Assembly (NCBI GenBank): GCA_001917735.1
Contig: MNEO01000059.1
Span: 1-46,717 of the forward strand
Source of the DNA: Chloroflexi bacterium 13_1_40CM_68_21
GTDB lineage: Bacteria > Chloroflexota > Limnocylindria > P2-11E
DNA length: 46,717 bases
Direction of reading: 5' to 3'
Positions 1 through 6,486 of the stretch are shown here, piece after piece. Position numbers and translations under genes: made by a program. The stretch's first letter is position 1. Every line of letters begins with the position of its first letter. The notes under the pieces are model-generated. The model did no database searches. It was not told the DNA's origin and worked only from the letters and a program-made list of their open reading frames with translations.

Positions 1-1
1 C

Positions 2-259
2 GTTGAGCTCTGCCGGGAGCTCGTGCCCGACGTGCTGGTCCTGGATAACAGCATGCCGCGGGGCGACGGCGTCACGGTGACGAGGACACTGGCCCGCGGG
101 ATGCCCGAAGTCCGTGTCGTGATGTACACGCTCGACGACGAGATCTGTCCGGTCGCTCGGGCATTCGGCGCAGTGGCCTGTGTGAGCAAGGACTCGCCAT
201 ACGAGTACCTCTTGCAGGCGATCAGAAACTCCGTGGCGGTCGTGGCACGTCTGCCGTAA
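2..259 (+). CDS. Response regulator receiver domain, 5'-truncated by window edge
   Basis: The reading frame is open from base 2, so the gene begins outside the window. The visible part is the C-terminal two thirds of a CheY-like receiver: the phospho-acceptor Asp lies in VLVLDNSMPRGDG, the conserved Thr in VVMYT and the Lys in VSKDS. The protein stops directly after the last receiver helix, so no DNA-binding output domain follows; it is either a stand-alone receiver or has its output domain upstream, which is rare. A 10-bp hairpin (290-314) follows the stop. The partner kinase is not visible. The family is clear, the pathway unknown. Confidence 0.75.
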   Translation, partial: VELCRELVPDVLVLDNSMPRGDGVTVTRTLARGMPEVRVVMYTLDDEICPVARAFGAVACVSKDSPYEYLLQAIRNSVAVVARLP

Positions 260-289
260 TCGAGATTTCCCCCACCCCCAACCCGGCGC

Positions 290-314
290 GACGGCTCCCA
301 GACAGGGAGCCGTC
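290..314. terminator. Hairpin between convergent genes
   Basis: Perfect inverted repeat, 10-bp stem GACGGCTCCC / GGGAGCCGTC with loop AGACA, lying between the receiver gene (plus) and the VOC pseudogene (minus). No U-run follows on either strand, so it is a candidate bidirectional transcript end or RNA-stabilising hairpin rather than a classical intrinsic terminator. Confidence 0.55.
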
Positions 315-325
315 TCCCTTCGGGT

Positions 326-645
326 TCAGACACCCCTGTCTCGCCCGGCGGCCAAGAGCTCGAGGGGATTGCCCGATGGGTCGTCGATGAGGATCTGAGA
401 CCCGCCGGGTCCCGTCACGATGTCGTTCCGAAAGCGGAGCCCCACCGCGCGGAGGCGAGCCACTTCGGCTGGAAGGTCCTCGACGATCAGCTGGATCCGG
501 TTCCAACCGCCCGGACCAGGGCGCCGACCGTCTGGCATCGACCGGCCGGCGGAGCTCCTCTCGCCGCTCAGGAGCAACCGCAGTGCTTCGTGTAGAAGGC
601 GACGGCGGCATCGACGTCGTCGACCATGTAGCGGAGGTTGACCAT
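326..645 (-). pseudogene. VOC/glyoxalase-family protein, broken by deletion and frameshift
   Basis: The N-terminus starts with ATG at 645 and reads MVNLRYMVDDVDAAVAFYTKH, the typical first beta-alpha unit of a vicinal-oxygen-chelate protein, but then hits TGA after CGCS. The rest of the fold continues in another frame: LRLLLSG, MPDGRRPGPGGWNRIQLIV and the C-terminal segment ending DDPSGNPLELL. Compared with the family about 20 residues are missing at the junction near 590-600, and the lost length is not a multiple of three. It lies 9 nt downstream of the endonuclease III gene and was probably co-transcribed with it. Either a real decaying gene or a local assembly deletion. Confidence 0.75.
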
Positions 646-654
646 GTGGTGACA

Positions 655-1320
655 CTACCGCGAGTTCACCACGCCAACGCGCGGGCAGAGATCGCGCAGC
701 ACGCACTCTGAGCAGCGCGGCCGCTGCGCCAGACATACGGCACGCCCGTGACGGATGAGATTCATGTGCAGCGCGTACATGTCTTCTTCGGGCACGCTGG
801 CCTGGAACGCGGCCTGCGTGGCGACCGCGTCGGCTCGCGGTGGGACGAGGCCGAGGCGCTTGGCCACGCGATGGACGTGCGTGTCGACCGGGAAGTAAGG
901 GCGATCAAGGGAGAAGAGGAGGACGCACGCGGCGGTCTTCGGGCCCACGCCTGGCAGCGCGACAAGCGTGTCCCAGAGGTCCTGATCGCGCATCCGCGTG
1001 AAGGCCCGGTCGTCGAGCGGCACGCCGCTGTCGCGGATCGCACGGAGCATCGCGCGGATGCGCACCGCCTTCGTCGGACCGAGGCCGCCGCGACGGATGG
1101 CGCGAGCGAGAACGGGTAACGGAGCGTCCGCGACCTCGTCCCACGTCTCAAGACGCCTGCGTAGGTCCGCATATGCGCGGTCGCGGTTCGTATCGCTCGT
1201 GTGCTGCGACAACACGGTGAGGACGAGCTCTTCGAGCGGCGGCAGGTGTCGAGGTGGTGGCGGATCGCCGTATGCCCGAACGAGCCGTCGCATGATGGCG
1301 CGAAGCCGCCGCCGATCCAC
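655..1320 (-). CDS. nth: Endonuclease III-like DNA glycosylase (copy 1)
   Basis: Base-excision repair DNA glycosylase/AP lyase for oxidised pyrimidines by family. The 221-aa protein has the helix-hairpin-helix GVGPKTA at residues 124-130 with catalytic Lys128, the catalytic Asp146 in PVDTHVHR, and a C-terminal 4Fe-4S motif C196-x6-C203-x2-C206-x5-C212, exactly the canonical spacing. It starts with GTG at 1320; TAGGCT lies 7 nt before that codon, suggesting a leaderless mRNA. It is divergent from the sigma factor gene and is the more diverged of the two endonuclease III genes in the window; the other is at 2776-3519. The family is certain; which lesions this paralogue prefers cannot be read from the sequence. 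Confidence 0.9.
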   Translation of the reverse strand: MDRRRLRAIMRRLVRAYGDPPPPRHLPPLEELVLTVLSQHTSDTNRDRAYADLRRRLETWDEVADAPLPVLARAIRRGGLGPTKAVRIRAMLRAIRDSGVPLDDRAFTRMRDQDLWDTLVALPGVGPKTAACVLLFSLDRPYFPVDTHVHRVAKRLGLVPPRADAVATQAAFQASVPEEDMYALHMNLIRHGRAVCLAQRPRCSECVLRDLCPRVGVVNSR

Positions 1321-1327
1321 CCGGGCG

Positions 1328-1333
1328 AGCCTA
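1328..1333 (-). promoter_or_regulatory. -10 box TAGGCT for the endonuclease III gene, leaderless type
   Basis: On the minus strand TAGGCT is followed by 7 nt and then the GTG start at 1320, the spacing expected when transcription starts at or next to the start codon. No Shine-Dalgarno sequence precedes the start. It overlaps the divergent SigR-type promoter region. Confidence 0.45.
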
Positions 1334-1335
1334 TC

Positions 1336-1372
1336 GGGAATGGCCTGAGGCCCGCAGGCGTTGGTCTAAAGT
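1336..1372 (+). promoter_or_regulatory. SigR-type promoter GGGAAT-N18-GTT plus TAAAGT box
   Basis: GGGAAT at 1336-1341 is separated by exactly 18 nt from GTT at 1360-1362, matching the consensus recognised by SigR-type ECF sigma factors of Actinobacteria. It sits directly before the gene for such a sigma factor, which points to autoregulation. A separate TAAAGT box at 1367-1372, 6 nt before the GTG start, could serve as a housekeeping leaderless promoter. Confidence 0.6.
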
Positions 1373-1378
1373 GACCGG

Positions 1379-1960
1379 GTGGCGCAAGATCCGTTCGAGA
1401 CCGAGGCGCTGACTTACATCGATGCGCTTTACCGAACGGCGCTCCGGATGACCCGATCGGAGGCGGACGCCGAGGACCTCGTGCAGGAGACCTATATTCG
1501 CGCGCTGCGCTTCCGCGAGCAGTTCACGCCCGGGACCAACCTCAAGGCGTGGCTCTTCCGCATCCTCACCAACACCTTTATCAACGCCTACCGGAAACGC
1601 GCTCGGCAGCCCCAAACAGCAGAGCTGGAGGACGTCGACGAGTTCTCGCTCTACCGGCGCATGGCCCAGGACGGATCGGCCGCGGGCTCGTCCGACCCCG
1701 AGCGGGAGTTTCTCGACGGGATCGTCTCGAGCGAGGTGAAGGACGCCCTCGAGGCGCTCCCCGAGAAGTTCCGGACGACCGTGCTCCTCGACGTCGAGGG
1801 CTTCTCCTATAAGGAGATCGCCGAGATGCTCGCCATCCCGATCGGCACGGTCATGTCGAGGCTTCATCGCGGCCGGAAGTTCCTGCAGCAGCGGCTCTAC
1901 GACCTGGCTCGCGAACGCGGGATCGCCGCCGTTCGGGCGAGCGGGCAGCAGCCGGATTAG
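1379..1960 (+). CDS. sigR: ECF RNA polymerase sigma factor, SigR-like
   Basis: A 193-aa two-domain sigma-70 factor of the ECF group. Region 2 holds [15 protein letters not shown] and the core-binding/-10 recognition stretch [20 protein letters not shown]; region 4 holds [25 protein letters not shown] with the helix-turn-helix ending in [12 protein letters not shown]. The NAYRK(K/R)xR plus sigma4 wording resembles SigR/RpoE of Actinobacteria. It starts with GTG and is followed after 9 nt by a zinc anti-sigma gene with a strong ribosome site, a standard sigma/anti-sigma operon. The SigR-type promoter just upstream suggests self-activation under thiol-oxidative stress; that last step is inference from the pair and the promoter. 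Confidence 0.88.
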
Positions 1961-1969
1961 GAGGAGGCA

Positions 1970-2212
1970 ATGGACTGCGACGACTGCCTCGAGAAGCTCT
2001 ACCAGTTCCTAGACCAGGAGCTCGGGCCCTTGGAGCGCACGGAGATGGCGCGCCACCTCGAAGGATGCGATGACTGCGGGGACACGGTCGTGTTCGAGGA
2101 GCGCTTTCTGAAGGTGATCCGTGACTGCGGGACCTCCGACATCGCCCCCGCGGAGCTCCGTCAGCGCGTCGTGGAGCGATTGCGAGGCGACGTCCCTCCG
2201 ACCACCGCCTGA
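1970..2212 (+). CDS. rsrA: Zinc-binding anti-sigma factor, RsrA-like
   Basis: An 80-aa soluble protein with the ZAS signature H29-x3-C33-x2-C36 (HLEGCDDC) and an N-terminal Cys pair C3/C6, as in RsrA, whose zinc is lost on disulphide formation so that the sigma factor is released. It has a strong ribosome site (AGGAGG) before ATG at 1970 and follows the sigma gene immediately. There is no membrane segment, in keeping with a cytoplasmic redox sensor rather than an envelope sensor. C53 is an extra cysteine. Role assigned from motif plus gene order. Confidence 0.85.
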   Translation: MDCDDCLEKLYQFLDQELGPLERTEMARHLEGCDDCGDTVVFEERFLKVIRDCGTSDIAPAELRQRVVERLRGDVPPTTA

Positions 2213-2232
2213 TGTCGCTCGGGTCTCATGTG

Positions 2233-2263
2233 TTGACATTTGCAACGTGAGTGTGTCTATATA
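2233..2263 (+). promoter_or_regulatory. Strong sigma70-type promoter for the lysine-rich peptide
   Basis: A perfect -35 hexamer TTGACA (2233-2238) is followed by TATATA at 2258-2263 (19-nt spacer) or TCTATA at 2256-2261 (17-nt spacer). Transcription would begin near 2270, giving a leader of about 30 nt that carries a near-perfect Shine-Dalgarno sequence. Confidence 0.65.
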
Positions 2264-2299
2264 ACCGTCAATGCGTGGCCAGGAGGAGGTGATCCACTG

Positions 2300-2347
2300 A
2301 TGCCAGCGAAGAAGAAGGCGAAGAAGTCCTCGAAGAAGAAGAAGTAA
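2300..2347 (+). CDS. 15-aa lysine-rich peptide MPAKKKAKKSSKKKK
   Basis: ATG at 2300 to TAA at 2345-2347 encodes MPAKKKAKKSSKKKK, ten lysines in fifteen residues. The sequence AGGAGGAGGTGAT at 2281-2293 is one of the best ribosome sites in the window, 6 nt before the ATG. The unit has its own consensus promoter upstream (2233-2263) and a textbook intrinsic terminator 12 nt downstream (2359-2384), so it is a complete monocistronic gene despite its size. The composition resembles the basic tails of histone H1-like nucleoid proteins, so nucleic-acid or polyphosphate binding is conceivable, but no function can be assigned. A non-coding role of the transcript is the main alternative. Confidence 0.7.
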   Translation: MPAKKKAKKSSKKKK

Positions 2348-2354
2348 GCATGTC

Positions 2355-2882
2355 GTGAGCGACGACGCGAGTCGTCGCTTTTTTCGTTTCACGAGTCTGG
2401 CACCTTTCGCGAACCCGCCGATCCGCGTAGGCCTCGCGGATCGGTTTTCTTTTTCTAGCGATACGCTCGAGGTCATCTCACCGCAGCGCTCGCTCCCACC
2501 GATCGATCGGACCGCGGTCGCGATCGGCCTCCTCGCGGCCGTCGGGAGCGCTCTCATCCTCGGTCTCGGCGCCGGGCCAGGCGCGCCGATCTTTGGTATC
2601 GCCGCTCCACTTTGTGGTATCGCGATCGGGGCGTATTTGGCTGGAAAACTGGCCAAATACGCGGGCCTCTACCACGGGGCGCTGGTGGGGGCGGGCTACG
2701 TGCTGATCGAAGCTTTCGGCTTTGCACCCGCGCCGCTCGAGCCGCTCGAGGGCGGGATCGCGGAGGGCCTCTGGATCATCGCGGGCGACGCATCGCTGCT
2801 CCTGGTGGCAGCGCTGTTTGGCTGGATCGCAGCGCCGCGGGCAACACCTTTGTCTTCTTCGGATAAGGACAGAGGTCGTTGA
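2355..2882 (+). CDS. Small membrane protein with four predicted TM segments; start uncertain
   Basis: The frame is open from GTG 2355 (175 aa) but its first 33 codons run through two intrinsic terminators, so the true start is probably later. The convincing protein starts near residue 45 and has hydrophobic segments at about 54-72, 78-97, 104-122 and 140-160, with GAYLAGKLAKYAGLYHGALVGAGYVL resembling the glycine-rich TIGR04086/YrzE-type membrane proteins. No ATG or GTG lies in frame between the second terminator and the first TM segment, so a rare start codon or a lost start is implied. The last 107 nt overlap the convergent endonuclease III gene. No function is recognised. Confidence 0.55.
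   Translation: MSDDASRRFFRFTSLAPFANPPIRVGLADRFSFSSDTLEVISPQRSLPPIDRTAVAIGLLAAVGSALILGLGAGPGAPIFGIAAPLCGIAIGAYLAGKLAKYAGLYHGALVGAGYVLIEAFGFAPAPLEPLEGGIAEGLWIIAGDASLLLVAALFGWIAAPRATPLSSSDKDRGR
2359..2384 (+). terminator. Intrinsic terminator after the lysine-rich peptide
   Basis: Perfect 8-bp stem GCGACGAC / GTCGTCGC, tetraloop GCGA, followed at once by TTTTTT (2379-2384). Confidence 0.88.
2418..2454 (+). terminator. Second intrinsic terminator in tandem
   Basis: Perfect 10-bp stem CCGATCCGCG / CGCGGATCGG with a 7-nt loop, followed by TTTTCTTTTT. It lies 34 nt after the first terminator, a tandem arrangement typical after a strongly transcribed unit. Confidence 0.82.
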
Positions 2883-3519
2883 CCGGACAGATGGGACAGA
2901 GCGGCGTCGGCCGGCAGATGCGACGGCCGTGCAGCACGAGGCACCACGTCGCCCTGATCCAGTCCTTCTTCGGGTAGAGCGCTCGGAGGCTTTCCTCGAT
3001 CGAGCCGGCCGCTTTGGAGAGCCGCAAGCGATCGGCGACCCGCTCGACATGGCGGTCTACGGCGACCGCGGGGACCCCGAAAGCGGCTCCGAGGACGATC
3101 GACGCCGTCTTGCGACCAACGCCATGGAGCCGGGTTAGGCCCTCCATGTCGGAGGGGACCTCTCCTCCGAACTCCTCGAGGAGCCCGCGCGACATCGCGC
3201 GGAGCGACTTGGCCTTCTGGTTGAAGAAGCCGGTCGCCTTGATGTCCCGCTCGAGAACACCCGCCGGGGCCGAGGCGTAGTCCGCCGGAGTCCGGTATTT
3301 CTGGAAGAGGGTGCGGGTGACCTGGTTGATCCGCTCGTCCTGGGCCTGCGCGGCGAGGATCGTGGCAACCAGCAGCTCGAGAGGGCTCGAGAACAGCAGA
3401 GTTGGACCCCAGTCCGGGTTCGCCTTCGCCAGCCGGGCGAGGATCCGCCGCGCCCGCGCGCGTAACGCGGGATCGGGCGGTTTCGGCGGGCGGGGTTTGC
3501 CTTTCCTTCGTGCAGACAC
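2776..3519 (-). CDS. nth: Endonuclease III (copy 2)
   Basis: A 247-aa DNA glycosylase/AP lyase with the canonical core: HhH GVGRKTA at 133-139 (Lys137), catalytic Asp155 in AVDRHVERV, and a 4Fe-4S loop C202-x5-C208-x2-C211-x5-C217. The first spacing is one residue shorter than the usual x6, an oddity that copy 1 does not share. The N-terminus is Lys/Arg/Pro-rich. It starts with GTG, 9 nt after the DM13 gene stop, so the two form one minus-strand unit. The 3' end overlaps the convergent membrane-protein gene by about 107 nt. This copy looks like the general-purpose Nth; copy 1 is a diverged paralogue. Confidence 0.9.
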   Translation of the reverse strand: MSARRKGKPRPPKPPDPALRARARRILARLAKANPDWGPTLLFSSPLELLVATILAAQAQDERINQVTRTLFQKYRTPADYASAPAGVLERDIKATGFFNQKAKSLRAMSRGLLEEFGGEVPSDMEGLTRLHGVGRKTASIVLGAAFGVPAVAVDRHVERVADRLRLSKAAGSIEESLRALYPKKDWIRATWCLVLHGRRICRPTPLCPICPVNDLCPYPKKTKVLPAALRSSQTALPPGAAMRRPR

Positions 3520-3528
3520 GGGCCGACG

Positions 3529-4074
3529 CTAGCTGAGGTCGGCCCAGGTGATCAGCACGCGGAACGCGCGGCACCACACGACGACGCTCCCGTAGCTCGC
3601 GACATCGACCGCCGCCGGGAGCTCGTAGTTAAAGGAGCCGTTCGTCGCCTTGAGCGCACCCAGATAGAGGCTCGTCGCCTCGGCCCACTTTCCGCCGGTC
3701 TCGCGCGAGAGATAGACGTGAATGTCCGGCGCATTCGTGATGGCGACGTCCTCGAAGCGGACGAATCGCTGGCCGCCGACCTCGACGATCCGCACCGGCC
3801 CTTTGCCGTTGTGGACCGAGTCGACGTAGCCGAGCTCCCCCATGACGAGTACGCGCGGGCCGGCTGGGGTGGACGTAATGGTGGCAGCGGTCGGCTGGGG
3901 TGTCGCGACGGTGGTCGCGGGCGCCGGGAGCGCTTCGTTGGTGTACGTGCGTACGAAGAGCGGCGACCCGAGGTACCAGCCGAGCGCCGCGATCAGGACG
4001 AGCAGCGCGGCGGCTCCCCCGATCCGGACCGGGTGCCCGGCGAAGAACGCCGCGACGGGGACCATCTCCCCCAT
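3529..4074 (-). CDS. Membrane-anchored DM13-domain protein
   Basis: About 181 aa. A single TM segment near residues 14-33 is followed by an Ala/Pro/Thr linker and a DM13 domain ([21 protein letters not shown] to the end), including the conserved APDIHVYLS strand and the Trp-Cys of [10 protein letters not shown]13 domains are proposed to take part in extracytoplasmic redox or electron transfer; this is a family-level statement. The start is ATG 4074, or ATG 4065, which has GGGGGAG directly before it. The start codon overlaps that of the divergent ABC gene, so the promoter must lie inside that gene. It runs into the endonuclease III gene. Confidence 0.8.
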
Positions 4075-4819
4075 GATGGCGCAGGCGCAGGTGATCGAGT
4101 TCCGCGACGTCCACAAGCACTTCGGTCCGCTGCACGTGCTGCGCGGCATTAGCCTGTCCGTCCGCGAACGTGAGGTGCTCGTGATCATCGGGCCTTCGGG
4201 GTCGGGAAAGAGCACTCTCCTCCGCACGATCAATCGCCTCGAGCCGATCGAGAGCGGGACCCTGATCGTCGATGGGATCCCCGTCCACGCGATCGACACC
4301 GACGTGAACCGGCTCCGCAAGCGTGTGGGGATGGTCTTCCAGTCGTTCAACCTGTTCCCTCACCTCACCGCCGCCGAGAACGTGATGCTCGCGCCAACGA
4401 AGGTGCACGGCATCTCCACCAAGGAGGCCCGCGAGCGTGCCCTCGCGCTCCTGGCGAAGGTCGGGATCCCCGAGAAGGCGGATGTCCACCCCGCGCGCCT
4501 CTCCGGCGGTCAGCAGCAGCGCGTCGCGATCGCCCGGGCCCTCGCCATGGAACCGAAGGTCATGCTCTTCGACGAGCCCACGAGCGCGCTCGACGCCGAG
4601 ATGATCCGCGAGGTGCTCGACGTCATGCGGCAGCTCGCGCGGGAGGGCATGACCATGCTGGTGGTGAGCCACGAGCTAGGCTTCGCGCGCGAGGCGTCCG
4701 ACCGGGTGGTCTTCATGGACGAAGGACGCATCATTGAGGACACGCCGACAGCGGATTTCTTCGTGTCGCCAAAGGAAGAACGCGCGAGGCAGTTCCTCAG
4801 CAAGGTCATTCGGCACTAG
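4073..4819 (+). CDS. Polar amino-acid ABC transporter ATP-binding protein
   Basis: A 248-aa ATPase of the GlnQ/ArtP/HisP group. Walker [11 protein letters not shown]-loop [10 protein letters not shown], signature LSGGQQQR, Walker B VMLFDEP, D-loop SALD and H-loop VVSHE are all intact. Two adjacent ATG codons (4073, 4076) compete as start; neither has a good ribosome site. It is the first gene of a four-gene importer operon: ATPase, binding protein, permease, permease. Substrate by neighbour: glutamate/glutamine or a similar polar amino acid. Confidence 0.93.
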
Positions 4820-4833
4820 GGCAAGGAGGGAGC

Positions 4834-5745
4834 GTGTCGATGAGAGGCATCGGGCGAGCATTCGCGTTCGGTCTTGCCGTCGCGTTCGTCGCGGGCGCCT
4901 GTGGGGGCGCGGGCACGGGCGGCGGGACGGCCGCGACGTCGACCCTGCAGACATCGGCGGGGGCGAAGCCGAAGTTCGAGGTCCAGACTTTCATGTACTC
5001 GATCCAGGTCAAGGGAAAGCTCCGGGTCGGCACGCAGGAGGACAACCCGCCCTTCAGCGTGAAGAACCCCACGAACAGCAAGTGGGAAGGCTTCGACACC
5101 GACATCGCGCGGGAGATCGCGAAGGCCATCTTCGGGACGCAGGGCGACCCTGACAGCTTCATCGAGTGGGTTCCGGTCACGTCGGCGACGCGCATCCCAT
5201 CGCTGACGGACAACAAAGCCGACGCGATCATCAAGACGTTCACCATCAACGAGGACCGCAAGAAGCAGATCGACTTCTCGGATGTCTACTTCTCCACCGG
5301 CCAGCGGATCCTGGTGAAGAAGACCAACGATCAGATCAAGGAGGTCGCCGACCTCGGCGGCAAGACTTTCTGCGCGCAGCGCGGCTCGACCAGCGAGCAG
5401 AACGTGACGAAAGCGCAGCCGACCGCCAAGGCGCTCCTCCTGGACAGCTATCCGGCGTGCCTGCTGGCGCTCCAGCAGGGCCAGGCCGACGCCGTCTCGA
5501 CCGACGAAACGATCCTCTTCGGTCTCGTGAAGCAGGACCCGAACACCAAGATCGTTGGCAAGTACTTTTCCGACGAGCCCTATGGCGTCGGGGTCAAGAA
5601 GAACACCACCGGCGACCGGAACGGCTTCGTCGCCTTCCTCAACACCTGGCTCGCCGCGGCGATCAAGGATGGGACCTGGGGCAAGCTCTACGAGAAACAC
5701 ATCACGCCGGTCTCGGGCGACAAGAAGCAGGCACCGAAGGGCTAG
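4834..5745 (+). CDS. Amino-acid-binding lipoprotein of the polar amino-acid transporter
   Basis: A 303-aa solute-binding protein of family 3. The signal peptide ends in a lipobox (VAGAC), so the mature protein is lipid-anchored through Cys23, counted from the GTG. A low-complexity Gly/Thr linker follows, then the two-lobed fold from GKLRVGTQEDNPPFS; the motif GFDTDIAREIAKAI and the late GVGVKKN stretch fit glutamate/aspartate/glutamine binders. The ribosome site AAGGAGGG precedes GTG 4834 by 4 nt and ATG 4840 by 10 nt, so either start is possible. A 15-bp hairpin follows the stop. Confidence 0.92.
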   Translation: MSMRGIGRAFAFGLAVAFVAGACGGAGTGGGTAATSTLQTSAGAKPKFEVQTFMYSIQVKGKLRVGTQEDNPPFSVKNPTNSKWEGFDTDIAREIAKAIFGTQGDPDSFIEWVPVTSATRIPSLTDNKADAIIKTFTINEDRKKQIDFSDVYFSTGQRILVKKTNDQIKEVADLGGKTFCAQRGSTSEQNVTKAQPTAKALLLDSYPACLLALQQGQADAVSTDETILFGLVKQDPNTKIVGKYFSDEPYGVGVKKNTTGDRNGFVAFLNTWLAAAIKDGTWGKLYEKHITPVSGDKKQAPKG

Positions 5746-5769
5746 CGCTGCCGGCGTGACGCTAAGCGG

Positions 5770-5802
5770 GAGCGGGGGTCGGCCGACGGCCGGCCCCCGC
5801 TC
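5770..5802 (+). terminator. Strong intercistronic hairpin after the binding-protein gene
   Basis: A 15-bp stem with one G-U pair (GAGCGGGGGTCGGCC / GGCCGGCCCCCGCTC) and a 3-nt loop, with no U-run. It lies between the binding-protein and permease genes and probably acts as an attenuator or 3' mRNA stabiliser that keeps the binding protein in excess over the membrane subunits. Confidence 0.7.
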
Positions 5803-5817
5803 TTGGTGTATCGCCTG

Positions 5818-6486
5818 ATGCCGGGGGCGATCGCCTTCGAGTTCCCGGACCTCTTCTTCGGTGGGCTCTGGCTGACCATCCAGCTCTCGGTCCTCGGCCT
5901 TCTTGGGGCGCTCGTCCTCGGGACCGCGGTCGCGCTCCTGCGAGTCTCGCCAGTCGCTCCGCTGCGCTGGGCGGGCGCGGCCTATGTCGAGTTCTTTCGG
6001 AACACACCTCTGGTGGTCCAGCTCTTCTTCCTCTTCCTCGGGCTCCCGCTCCTCGGGCTCCGCTTCGCCACGGACACCTTCGACAACATCTTCCGCGCGG
6101 CCTTCGTGGGGATGGCGCTCTACCACGGCGCCTACGTCGCCGAGGTGGTGCGGGGCGGACTTCTCGGCGTGGATCGCGGGCAGATCGAAGCAGCCCGCTC
6201 GCTCGGGCTCTCGTACGTGCAAACGCTTCGTGAGGTGCAGCTCCCGCAGACCTTTCGCGCGGTGATCCCGCCGCTCGGCAACATCGCCATCGCCCTGGTC
6301 AAGAACACCTCGCTCGCCTCGACGATCGGCGTGACCGAGCTTCTCTTCGGCGCGGAGATCGTGGAGTCGCGCACGTTCCGGGCGGAGGAGGCCTTCCTGA
6401 CCGCCACGCTTCTCTATCTGGCGCTCACGATCCCGCTTGGTGTCGTGATGAACGGGCTCGAGCGCCGGCTGCTTGTGGTGCGCTAA
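5818..6486 (+). CDS. Polar amino-acid ABC transporter permease 1
   Basis: About 222 aa, a HisM/GlnP-type membrane subunit. The first TM segment is LWLTIQLSVLGLLGALVLG; AYVEFFRNTPLVVQLFFLF is the signature of this permease group and EAARSLGLSYVQTLREVQLPQ is the EAA loop that contacts the ATPase. The start is uncertain: TTG 5803 and GTG 5806 touch or follow the hairpin at 5770-5802, while ATG 5818 lies free of it and is preferred. No clear ribosome site is present. The stop is followed at once by the GTG of the second permease. Confidence 0.9.
   Translation: MPGAIAFEFPDLFFGGLWLTIQLSVLGLLGALVLGTAVALLRVSPVAPLRWAGAAYVEFFRNTPLVVQLFFLFLGLPLLGLRFATDTFDNIFRAAFVGMALYHGAYVAEVVRGGLLGVDRGQIEAARSLGLSYVQTLREVQLPQTFRAVIPPLGNIAIALVKNTSLASTIGVTELLFGAEIVESRTFRAEEAFLTATLLYLALTIPLGVVMNGLERRLLVVR

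Follow-up and report, generated by a model that had tools for sequence, protein, structure and literature searches.

An amino acid composition resembling the tail of histone H1 is known from AlgP of Pseudomonas and from the chlamydial proteins Hc1 and Hc2; Hc1 (HctA) is regarded as an H1-like protein. Small ORFs can share a transcript with a pairing region, as in the dual-function RNA SgrS/SgrT, and annotation readily overlooks very short basic peptides such as bL37 and bS22 from Actinobacteria, the former of which can adjoin rsrA. AlgP is long, its C-terminal domain alone comprising 154 residues (PMC9239181). In Chlamydia, the DNA-packing basic protein encoded by hctA is controlled by a trans-encoded small RNA, IhtA, whose pairing covers 6-7 nt about the start codon of hctA (PMC4355289).

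The gene considered here, K1, lies in a window of 46,717 nt (the whole stretch of DNA analysed, contig MNEO01000059.1 from Chloroflexi bacterium 13_1_40CM_68_21), and the features of its locus are collected in Table 1. K1 shares the H1-tail-like composition of AlgP and Hc1/Hc2, but differs from AlgP in being a bare tail of 13-20 residues with no domain and with a second gene copy. Whereas IhtA pairs around a start codon, the K1 message would pair over about 26 nt at its 3' end, beside the terminator. As in SgrS/SgrT-type RNAs, the pairing region and the small ORF lie on one transcript; unlike in these, the pairing block follows the ORF on its 3' side, and a second, independent gene exists for the ORF. 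K1 resembles bL37 and bS22 in its size, basic character and inconspicuousness to annotation, but differs from bL37 in sequence and strand. The reading preferred here, with a probability of roughly 0.6, is that K1 would be a free-standing H1-tail-like polycation that coats a polyanion and is encoded by two genes, of which K1 is controlled by a trans-encoded antisense RNA.

Table 1. Features of the K1 locus and of the preceding sigma/anti-sigma genes in the window
Feature	Position	Strand	Basis
SigR/SigH-type promoter GGGAAT-N18-GTT before the sigma gene	1336..1362	+	motif match
ECF sigma factor, SigH/SigR type	1379..1960	+	TIGR02947 (below cutoff); Pfam Sigma70_r2, r4_2
RsrA-type zinc anti-sigma factor	1970..2212	+	TIGR03988; zf-HC2
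Putative promoter TTGACAT ... TGTGTCTATAT	2233..2262 (TTGACA 2233-2238)	+	TTGACAT and TGTG.C....T invariant or nearly so in alignments A1 and A2; TTGACA by direct reading
Leader GTGGCCA with extended Shine-Dalgarno sequence AGGAGGAGGTGATCC	2275..2295 (AGGAGGAGGTGATCC 2281-2295, ending 4 nt 5' of the ATG)	+	invariant in A1 and A2
K1 micropeptide ORF MPAKKKAKKSSKKKK	2300..2347	+	ATG at 2300, TAA ending at 2347, 15 codons
Hairpin 1, GAGCGACGAC-GCGA-GTCGTCGCTT, with T6 in this lineage	2357..2380	+	direct reading, terminator scan
3' block GGCACCTTTCGCGAACCCGCCGATC, antisense to the rplL-downstream RNA element of relatives	2399..2423	+	invariant core, pairing table
Hairpin 2 and T-tract TTTTCTTTTT, conserved terminator	2417..2454 (hairpin 2417-2445)	+	28/28 sequences

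The spread of the unit was assessed at two levels. When species genomes were scanned with the sigma protein, 80 loci were obtained, the first 19 of which come from Chloroflexota metagenome bins, the nearest being 96% identical in the sigma factor. The K1 unit occupies the same place in all 18 of these loci that have downstream DNA, and alignment A1 omits the remaining one (L018). Alignment A2 contains 23 sequences, with two near repeats (L004 and L115) left out and two members (L120 and L121) short at their 3' ends. Among the 177 genomes of the class, a strict pattern matches 24, while a profile of the whole unit matches 27 with E-values below 1e-20, which places the unit beyond chance. Since 22 of the 23 profile sequences originate from matched genomes and the other one is the window, the figure of 27/177 measures spread and is not independent proof; the best 12 candidates per genome were scored, and most matches at E-values up to 1 are noise. 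The genomes carrying the unit are referred to below as the group, which is defined by this presence and not by a tree. The initial annotation had proposed a search of related genomes for short lysine-rich ORFs with a conserved Shine-Dalgarno sequence and terminator in the same place, and such ORFs are what these 27 genomes contain. It had also supposed that standard gene callers would omit the ORF, and gene finders do normally miss genes this short.

In the window itself, the unit was initially described as having a consensus TTGACA promoter, a ribosome site, an ORF of 15 codons, a GC-rich hairpin with T6 and a second terminator. Direct reading bears out the ribosome site, the ORF and both hairpins. 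The TTGACA element is likewise present, but the promoter as a whole is unusual: a scan of positions 1-6000 finds neither a canonical sigma-70 site nor a canonical -10, and the form conserved in alignments A1 and A2 is TTGACAT-N12-TGTG.C....T. Since the motif TTGACAT-N11-14-TGTGTCT occurs once per genome in 12 of the 14 genomes searched, and always at the K1 locus, the promoter appears to be peculiar to this locus; the motif is missing from G017 and G148, in which the K1 copies differ. The stretch GTGGCCA..AGGAGGTGAT is invariant across both alignments and contains the extended Shine-Dalgarno sequence, which presumably fits the 3' end of 16S rRNA. The leader GTGGCCANNAGGAGGTGAT is single-copy in all of 19 genomes and missing from two outsiders, and GGAGGTGATC occurs once in the window against an expectation of 0.14. 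An upstream ORF that overlaps the K1 start codon (MRGQEEVIH) was considered and dropped; it is absent in L014-L017 and L019.

Nine terminator-like sites, both K1 hairpins among them, are found in positions 1-6000, compared with 2.7 +/- 1.7 in shuffled sequences. All 28 K1 sequences have hairpin 2 with its T-tract (that of G148 having been read by eye and recounted), with compensatory changes at pairs 9 and 10. A hairpin also follows the K1 stop codon in most relatives, but its sequence and T-run vary: a run of at least five T residues lies between the stop codon and the 3' block in 13 of the 28 sequences, and directly behind the hairpin-1 stem, as read by eye, in 10. The claim of two hairpins holds; by conservation hairpin 2, and not hairpin 1, is the universal terminator, and the K1 transcript should be taken to extend to about position 2454. 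The whole transcript folds modestly better than its shuffles (z -1.65).

Several properties of the ORF point to selection on a peptide. The 28 K1 sequences comprise 24 different coding sequences for 18 different peptides with lengths of 13-20 residues, which follow the form M[PA]AKKK..KK..KK[KH] and consist of Lys (.593), Ala (.192), Ser (.118), Pro (.058), Thr (.021), His (.013) and Gly (.005), with no other residue. Length changes stay in frame, the lysine-rich end and the stop codon are kept, and serine codons alternate between TCN and AGC. K1 genes of equal length differ pairwise at 48 synonymous and 69 non-synonymous codons, a count which is not decisive for coding on its own; by eye, the replacements are mostly among Ala, Ser, Thr, Lys and His. 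The relatives keep the lysine codons with synonymous changes and show no frameshift, which is the outcome that the initial annotation had associated with a highly basic peptide rather than with an RNA.

The stronger argument comes from K2, a second locus with the same kind of peptide, which was reached through the next-best profile matches and is found in 26 of the 28 genomes examined. Only the locus pieces were searched, and the remaining two genomes (G013 and G150) may carry K2 elsewhere. K2 is seen in relatives, outside the window; the nearest relative, G001, has K2 and gives no rplL hit. K2 has its own extended ribosome site and GC hairpin and is devoid of the 3' block. In 16 of the 26 genomes, a helix-turn-helix gene (HTH_17 of Pfam in L169) has its recognised end 39-51 nt before the K2 start, whereas in the other 10 (G001-G010) the end of this gene was not recognised. 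The hairpin after K2 is of the type GCGCCGCGGGCGGGCGGCGC, with no clear T-tract, in loci L154-L160, L169, L173 and L273-L291. Taken together, the 24 distinct K1 and 23 distinct K2 coding sequences specify low-complexity peptides rich in Lys, Ala, Ser, Thr and Pro, with no acidic or aromatic residue; the residues of K2 are those of K1 plus an internal Met in G002 and G011.

In three of 25 genomes (G017, G155 and G157), K1 and K2 specify the same peptide from DNA that differs at 4, 3 and 6 codons, respectively, all 13 differences being synonymous. Over the 25 genomes, the similarity of K1 and K2 within a genome is.743, compared with.586 for random pairing (sd.021), a value reached in none of 5000 permutations; the same result (0/5000) is obtained with 20 genomes after removal of near copies. 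This likeness is due in part to common ancestry, as the peptides of neighbouring species resemble one another at either locus. Common ancestry does not, however, explain differences that are exclusively synonymous. Because identical peptides are encoded by DNA that differs in synonymous codons only, comparison of the two loci marks K1 as a peptide gene under selection, and hence translated, and the K2 peptide as evolving in step with it, as far as can be judged from sequence. A reading of K1 as a pure small RNA is disfavoured, being hard to square with K2. As to the earlier expectation of strong, isolated expression, the signals are strong, and strong expression is inferred from them only; isolation does not hold, given K2 in 26 of 28 genomes, the look-alikes described below and the candidate antisense partner.

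The anatomy of the unit (15 codons, 10 of them for lysine, a strong ribosome site, a hairpin with a T-tract) is that of a classic attenuator, in which the lysine codons of a leader peptide would sense charged tRNA-Lys while hairpins 1 and 2 act as antiterminator and terminator. Such a role is nevertheless highly improbable. No lysine gene lies behind K1: the next ORF (2355-2882) has no Pfam or NCBIfam match and looks membrane-like by eye, and it is followed by an endonuclease-III-type gene on the opposite strand, while K2 in L158 precedes a CAP-domain gene. The variability of hairpin 1 leaves no conserved pair of competing hairpins, and the residues other than lysine are restricted and agree between K1 and K2, neither of which attenuation needs.

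The 3' block lies directly before the 5' arm of hairpin 2 (2418-2427) and runs into it. In a search of 22 genomes that allowed two mismatches or fewer, its sequence GGCACCTTTCGCGANSCCRCCGA was present in all 17 group genomes (in G156 as the rplL copy only) and in none of five outsiders; at one mismatch or fewer, none of the 17 matching genomes has more than two copies. The second copies with no more than one mismatch follow closely on rplL and occupy the strand opposite to that of the K1 sense. This element is seen in relatives, outside the window. A lookup of rplL in 30 genomes found the gene in 23, 22 of which have the downstream element (the copy of G010 being on a different contig end); in the remaining one, G158, rplL is present, and both the element and a K1 hit are absent. 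The identity of rplL is confirmed by Pfam in L166 and L170, as is that of the adjacent rplJ in L166.

On the rplL strand, an invariant TA..GT box (TAnnnT, -10-like) precedes the element in all 22 aligned sequences, and a terminator-like hairpin with a T-rich tail follows it (TTTGGTTT in 9 of 22, variable in the others and weakest in G148). Because of this box and this hairpin, a separate small RNA is the simplest reading, and the element is probably one; transcription by read-through from rplL is possible. A SigR-type promoter for the rplL-linked RNA was considered and found too weak. In scans against Rfam 15, the whole window gave no match at gathering scores, and 12 relative loci gave, at E-values up to 1, two tRNAs and nothing else.

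The complementarity between the 3' block and the rplL element spans about 26 nt, usually with one internal mismatch. The pairing table covers the 20 genomes with both loci, without seven that have K1 and no rplL hit (G001, G014, G017, G019, G152, G155 and G157). Over 26 positions, 499 of 520 cells are paired (475 Watson-Crick and 24 G-U) and 21 are mismatched, figures that count cells and not independent events in a stretch picked after the alignment had been seen. Nineteen of the mismatched cells fall at the adjacent inner positions 14 and 15, one or the other of which is mismatched in 19 of the 20 genomes, and the remaining two at position 1 (G007 and G009). Outside positions 14-15, there are 24 G-U-compatible cells at five sites as against two mismatching cells at one site. 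Covariation is observed at position 18 (G/G in 15 genomes and A/A in five, which may share one event), position 1 (A/A in G015 and G148) and position 14 (T/T in three genomes and A/A in one). Predicted duplex energies, to which the stem sequences of both terminators contribute, are -83.7 kcal/mol for own pairs, -80.8 for cross pairs and -52.6 +/- 5.2 for shuffled partners; the gain of own over cross pairs averages only 2.9 kcal/mol, with a slight loss in 5 of 20. Conserved complementarity with covariation, as expected of a trans-encoded small RNA and its target, is present. The K2 hairpin was also tried as a second paired element and set aside, as many matches with two or fewer mismatches were obtained and the reversed control behaved likewise.

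The same block might instead be an element of double-stranded DNA, or one linked to a terminator, that is bound by a protein at two loci, with no pairing between RNAs. The limit of two copies in each of the 17 matching genomes when no more than one mismatch is allowed, the near-constant mismatch at position 14 or 15 (19 of 20 genomes) and the terminator-like hairpin abutting the block at both loci are what such an element could display. The differences between the copies are, however, tolerant of G-U pairing in the manner counted above (24 cells at five sites against two at one), which a DNA site would not prefer, and the copies are antisense relative to their T-rich tails; protein recognition is considered unlikely. 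About as unlikely is a dual-function RNA, in which the target of the K1 transcript would be the rplL-linked RNA or the expression of rplJL, the ORF being an added product. The antisense complementarity in trans would suit it, as would the stronger conservation of the leader, the 3' block and hairpin 2 than of the stretch between the stop codon and the block. The identical K1 and K2 peptides from differing DNA argue against it, and K2 provides the same kind of peptide without the block, which makes the peptide valuable in the absence of this RNA.

A small peptide next to a complementary RNA also recalls type I toxin-antitoxin systems, in which an antisense RNA silences a small toxic peptide. 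K1, however, has no strongly hydrophobic residue and is not a hydrophobic membrane peptide, its position behind the anti-sigma gene is identical in the 18 loci read, and the similar K2 peptide has no antisense block, all of which renders this explanation very hard to sustain.

The initial annotation placed K1 just behind a redox sigma/anti-sigma pair, and the position is borne out. The pair is of the SigH/RsrA type, although the sigma protein scores 228.4 bits against TIGR02947 (SigH_actino), below the cutoff of 251.55, while the anti-sigma protein scores 67.4 bits against TIGR03988 (RsrA), above the cutoff of 62.5. The HxxxCxxC motif of the anti-sigma factor is found 5' of K1 in 27 of the 28 sequences, the exception being a contig end. 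In 18 of 20 loci (the window and L001-L019), the motif GGGAAT-N17-19-GTT, which we take to represent the SigR/SigH consensus, is located 5' of the sigma gene, in 16 of them 43 nt ahead of the matched start. Its location in front of the sigma gene suggests autoregulation, and with it a SigR-type sigma factor outside Actinobacteria that controls its own gene. Two genes for HhH-GPD DNA glycosylases of the endonuclease III type, both on the minus strand (655-1320 and 2776-3519), flank the sigma locus.

The neighbourhood raises the question of whether K1 is a tiny ribosomal protein similar to bL37. At least 3 of the 61 loci L020-L080 have bL37 behind rsrA (L052 and L063 by pattern and L078 by reading), and both the extended ribosome site of K1 and its rplL-linked RNA partner would agree with a ribosomal function. 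There, however, bL37 lies on the opposite strand, and its sequence (MSKRGRKRKDRRKGGANHGKRPNA in L052) is unlike K1. The free variation of K1 in sequence and length (13-20 residues) is not expected of a fitted ribosomal component either, and a ribosomal role is regarded as improbable. The narrower idea of K1 as a relocated bL37 was rejected, as by eye the bL37 sequences of L052, L063 and L078 share only basic residues with it.

The preferred reading, an H1-tail-like polycation under antisense control, builds on the composition of the peptide. With about 60% lysine and the rest mainly Ala, Ser and Pro, it can hardly fold and corresponds in composition to an H1-type tail, which fits a nucleic-acid- or polyphosphate-binding role. 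From this chemistry and from the precedents of AlgP and Hc1/IhtA, the peptide might neutralise and coat a cellular polyanion, such as nucleoid DNA, rRNA or polyphosphate. The rplL-linked RNA would pair with the K1 message close to the terminator and set the stability or termination of this message, potentially by blocking termination, by exposing or protecting the 3' end or by recruiting RNase III, which would give K1 a dial that K2 does not have. Control is placed at the 3' end because the ribosome site does not come out as masked in 24 of 27 genomes: pairing of CACCUUU in the 3' block with GGAGGUG, which the alignment fold had suggested, is predicted by ensemble folding at 0.15 or less in these, the exceptions being G001 and G148 (0.84 each) and G155 (0.40).

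A more specific and quite tentative extension is that, throughout the group, the rplJ-rplL-linked RNA meters K1 and couples a DNA- or rRNA-packing polycation to the making of ribosomes and perhaps, by way of the SigR-type locus, also to oxidative stress, with K2 supplying a constant base level. What appears to be new here is that H1-type tails lacking a domain are encoded by separate genes, present as twins, of which one has a putative antisense partner in trans; a search of open-licence PMC text for the peptide family or the RNA pair gave no description among the matches listed. K1 suggests that an H1-type tail can stand as a gene by itself, free of any domain. Few conserved bacterial protein families whose translation is established by comparison would be smaller. 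Although most genomes of the group carry it twice and similar ORFs occur across the phylum, the family lies below usual annotation and length-limited protein searches. If the RNA partner is real, a nucleic-acid-packing peptide would be linked to ribosomal protein genes, and antisense control would be exerted at the 3' end, at a terminator.

Similar ORFs occur beyond the group. In a draw of 400 Chloroflexota genomes, 24 match a pattern of ribosome site, start codon and lysine codons, namely 11 of the K1 group, two in which the match is bL33 and not a K-peptide (G213 and G409), and 11 with K-rich ORFs of 13-25 residues. The latter, which amount to 11 of the 389 other Chloroflexota (e.g., MAAKKKAGGKKKAAKKSSKKK, MAAKKKAAKKPAAKKKAAKKKK and MAAKKKAAKKKKK), have a GC hairpin behind them by eye and seem alike to K1 in kind, a comparison of kinds and not of descent. 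Five similar peptides of 20-25 residues have no Pfam or NCBIfam match at E-values up to 10 (the 15 residues of K1 itself being below the search range), and the best PDB match of one 25-residue look-alike (E 4.9) reveals no meaningful relative. Eight further outsider genomes contain no pattern match. Among 296 actinobacterial genomes there are four: a 29-residue K-rich ORF in G763, a long H1-like protein in G562, an unrelated protein in G692, the last two being discounted, and L269 from G571. This bin is placed with Actinobacteria, and L269 is a short contig with a Chloroflexota K1 unit, probably a contamination of the bin. In the distant relative L216, a second lysine-rich frame seems to lie a few hundred bases from the first, suggesting tandem copies. 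A class member without a K1 match (G142, locus L152) encodes an 85-residue Lys/Ala repeat ORF that resembles a longer H1-like tail.
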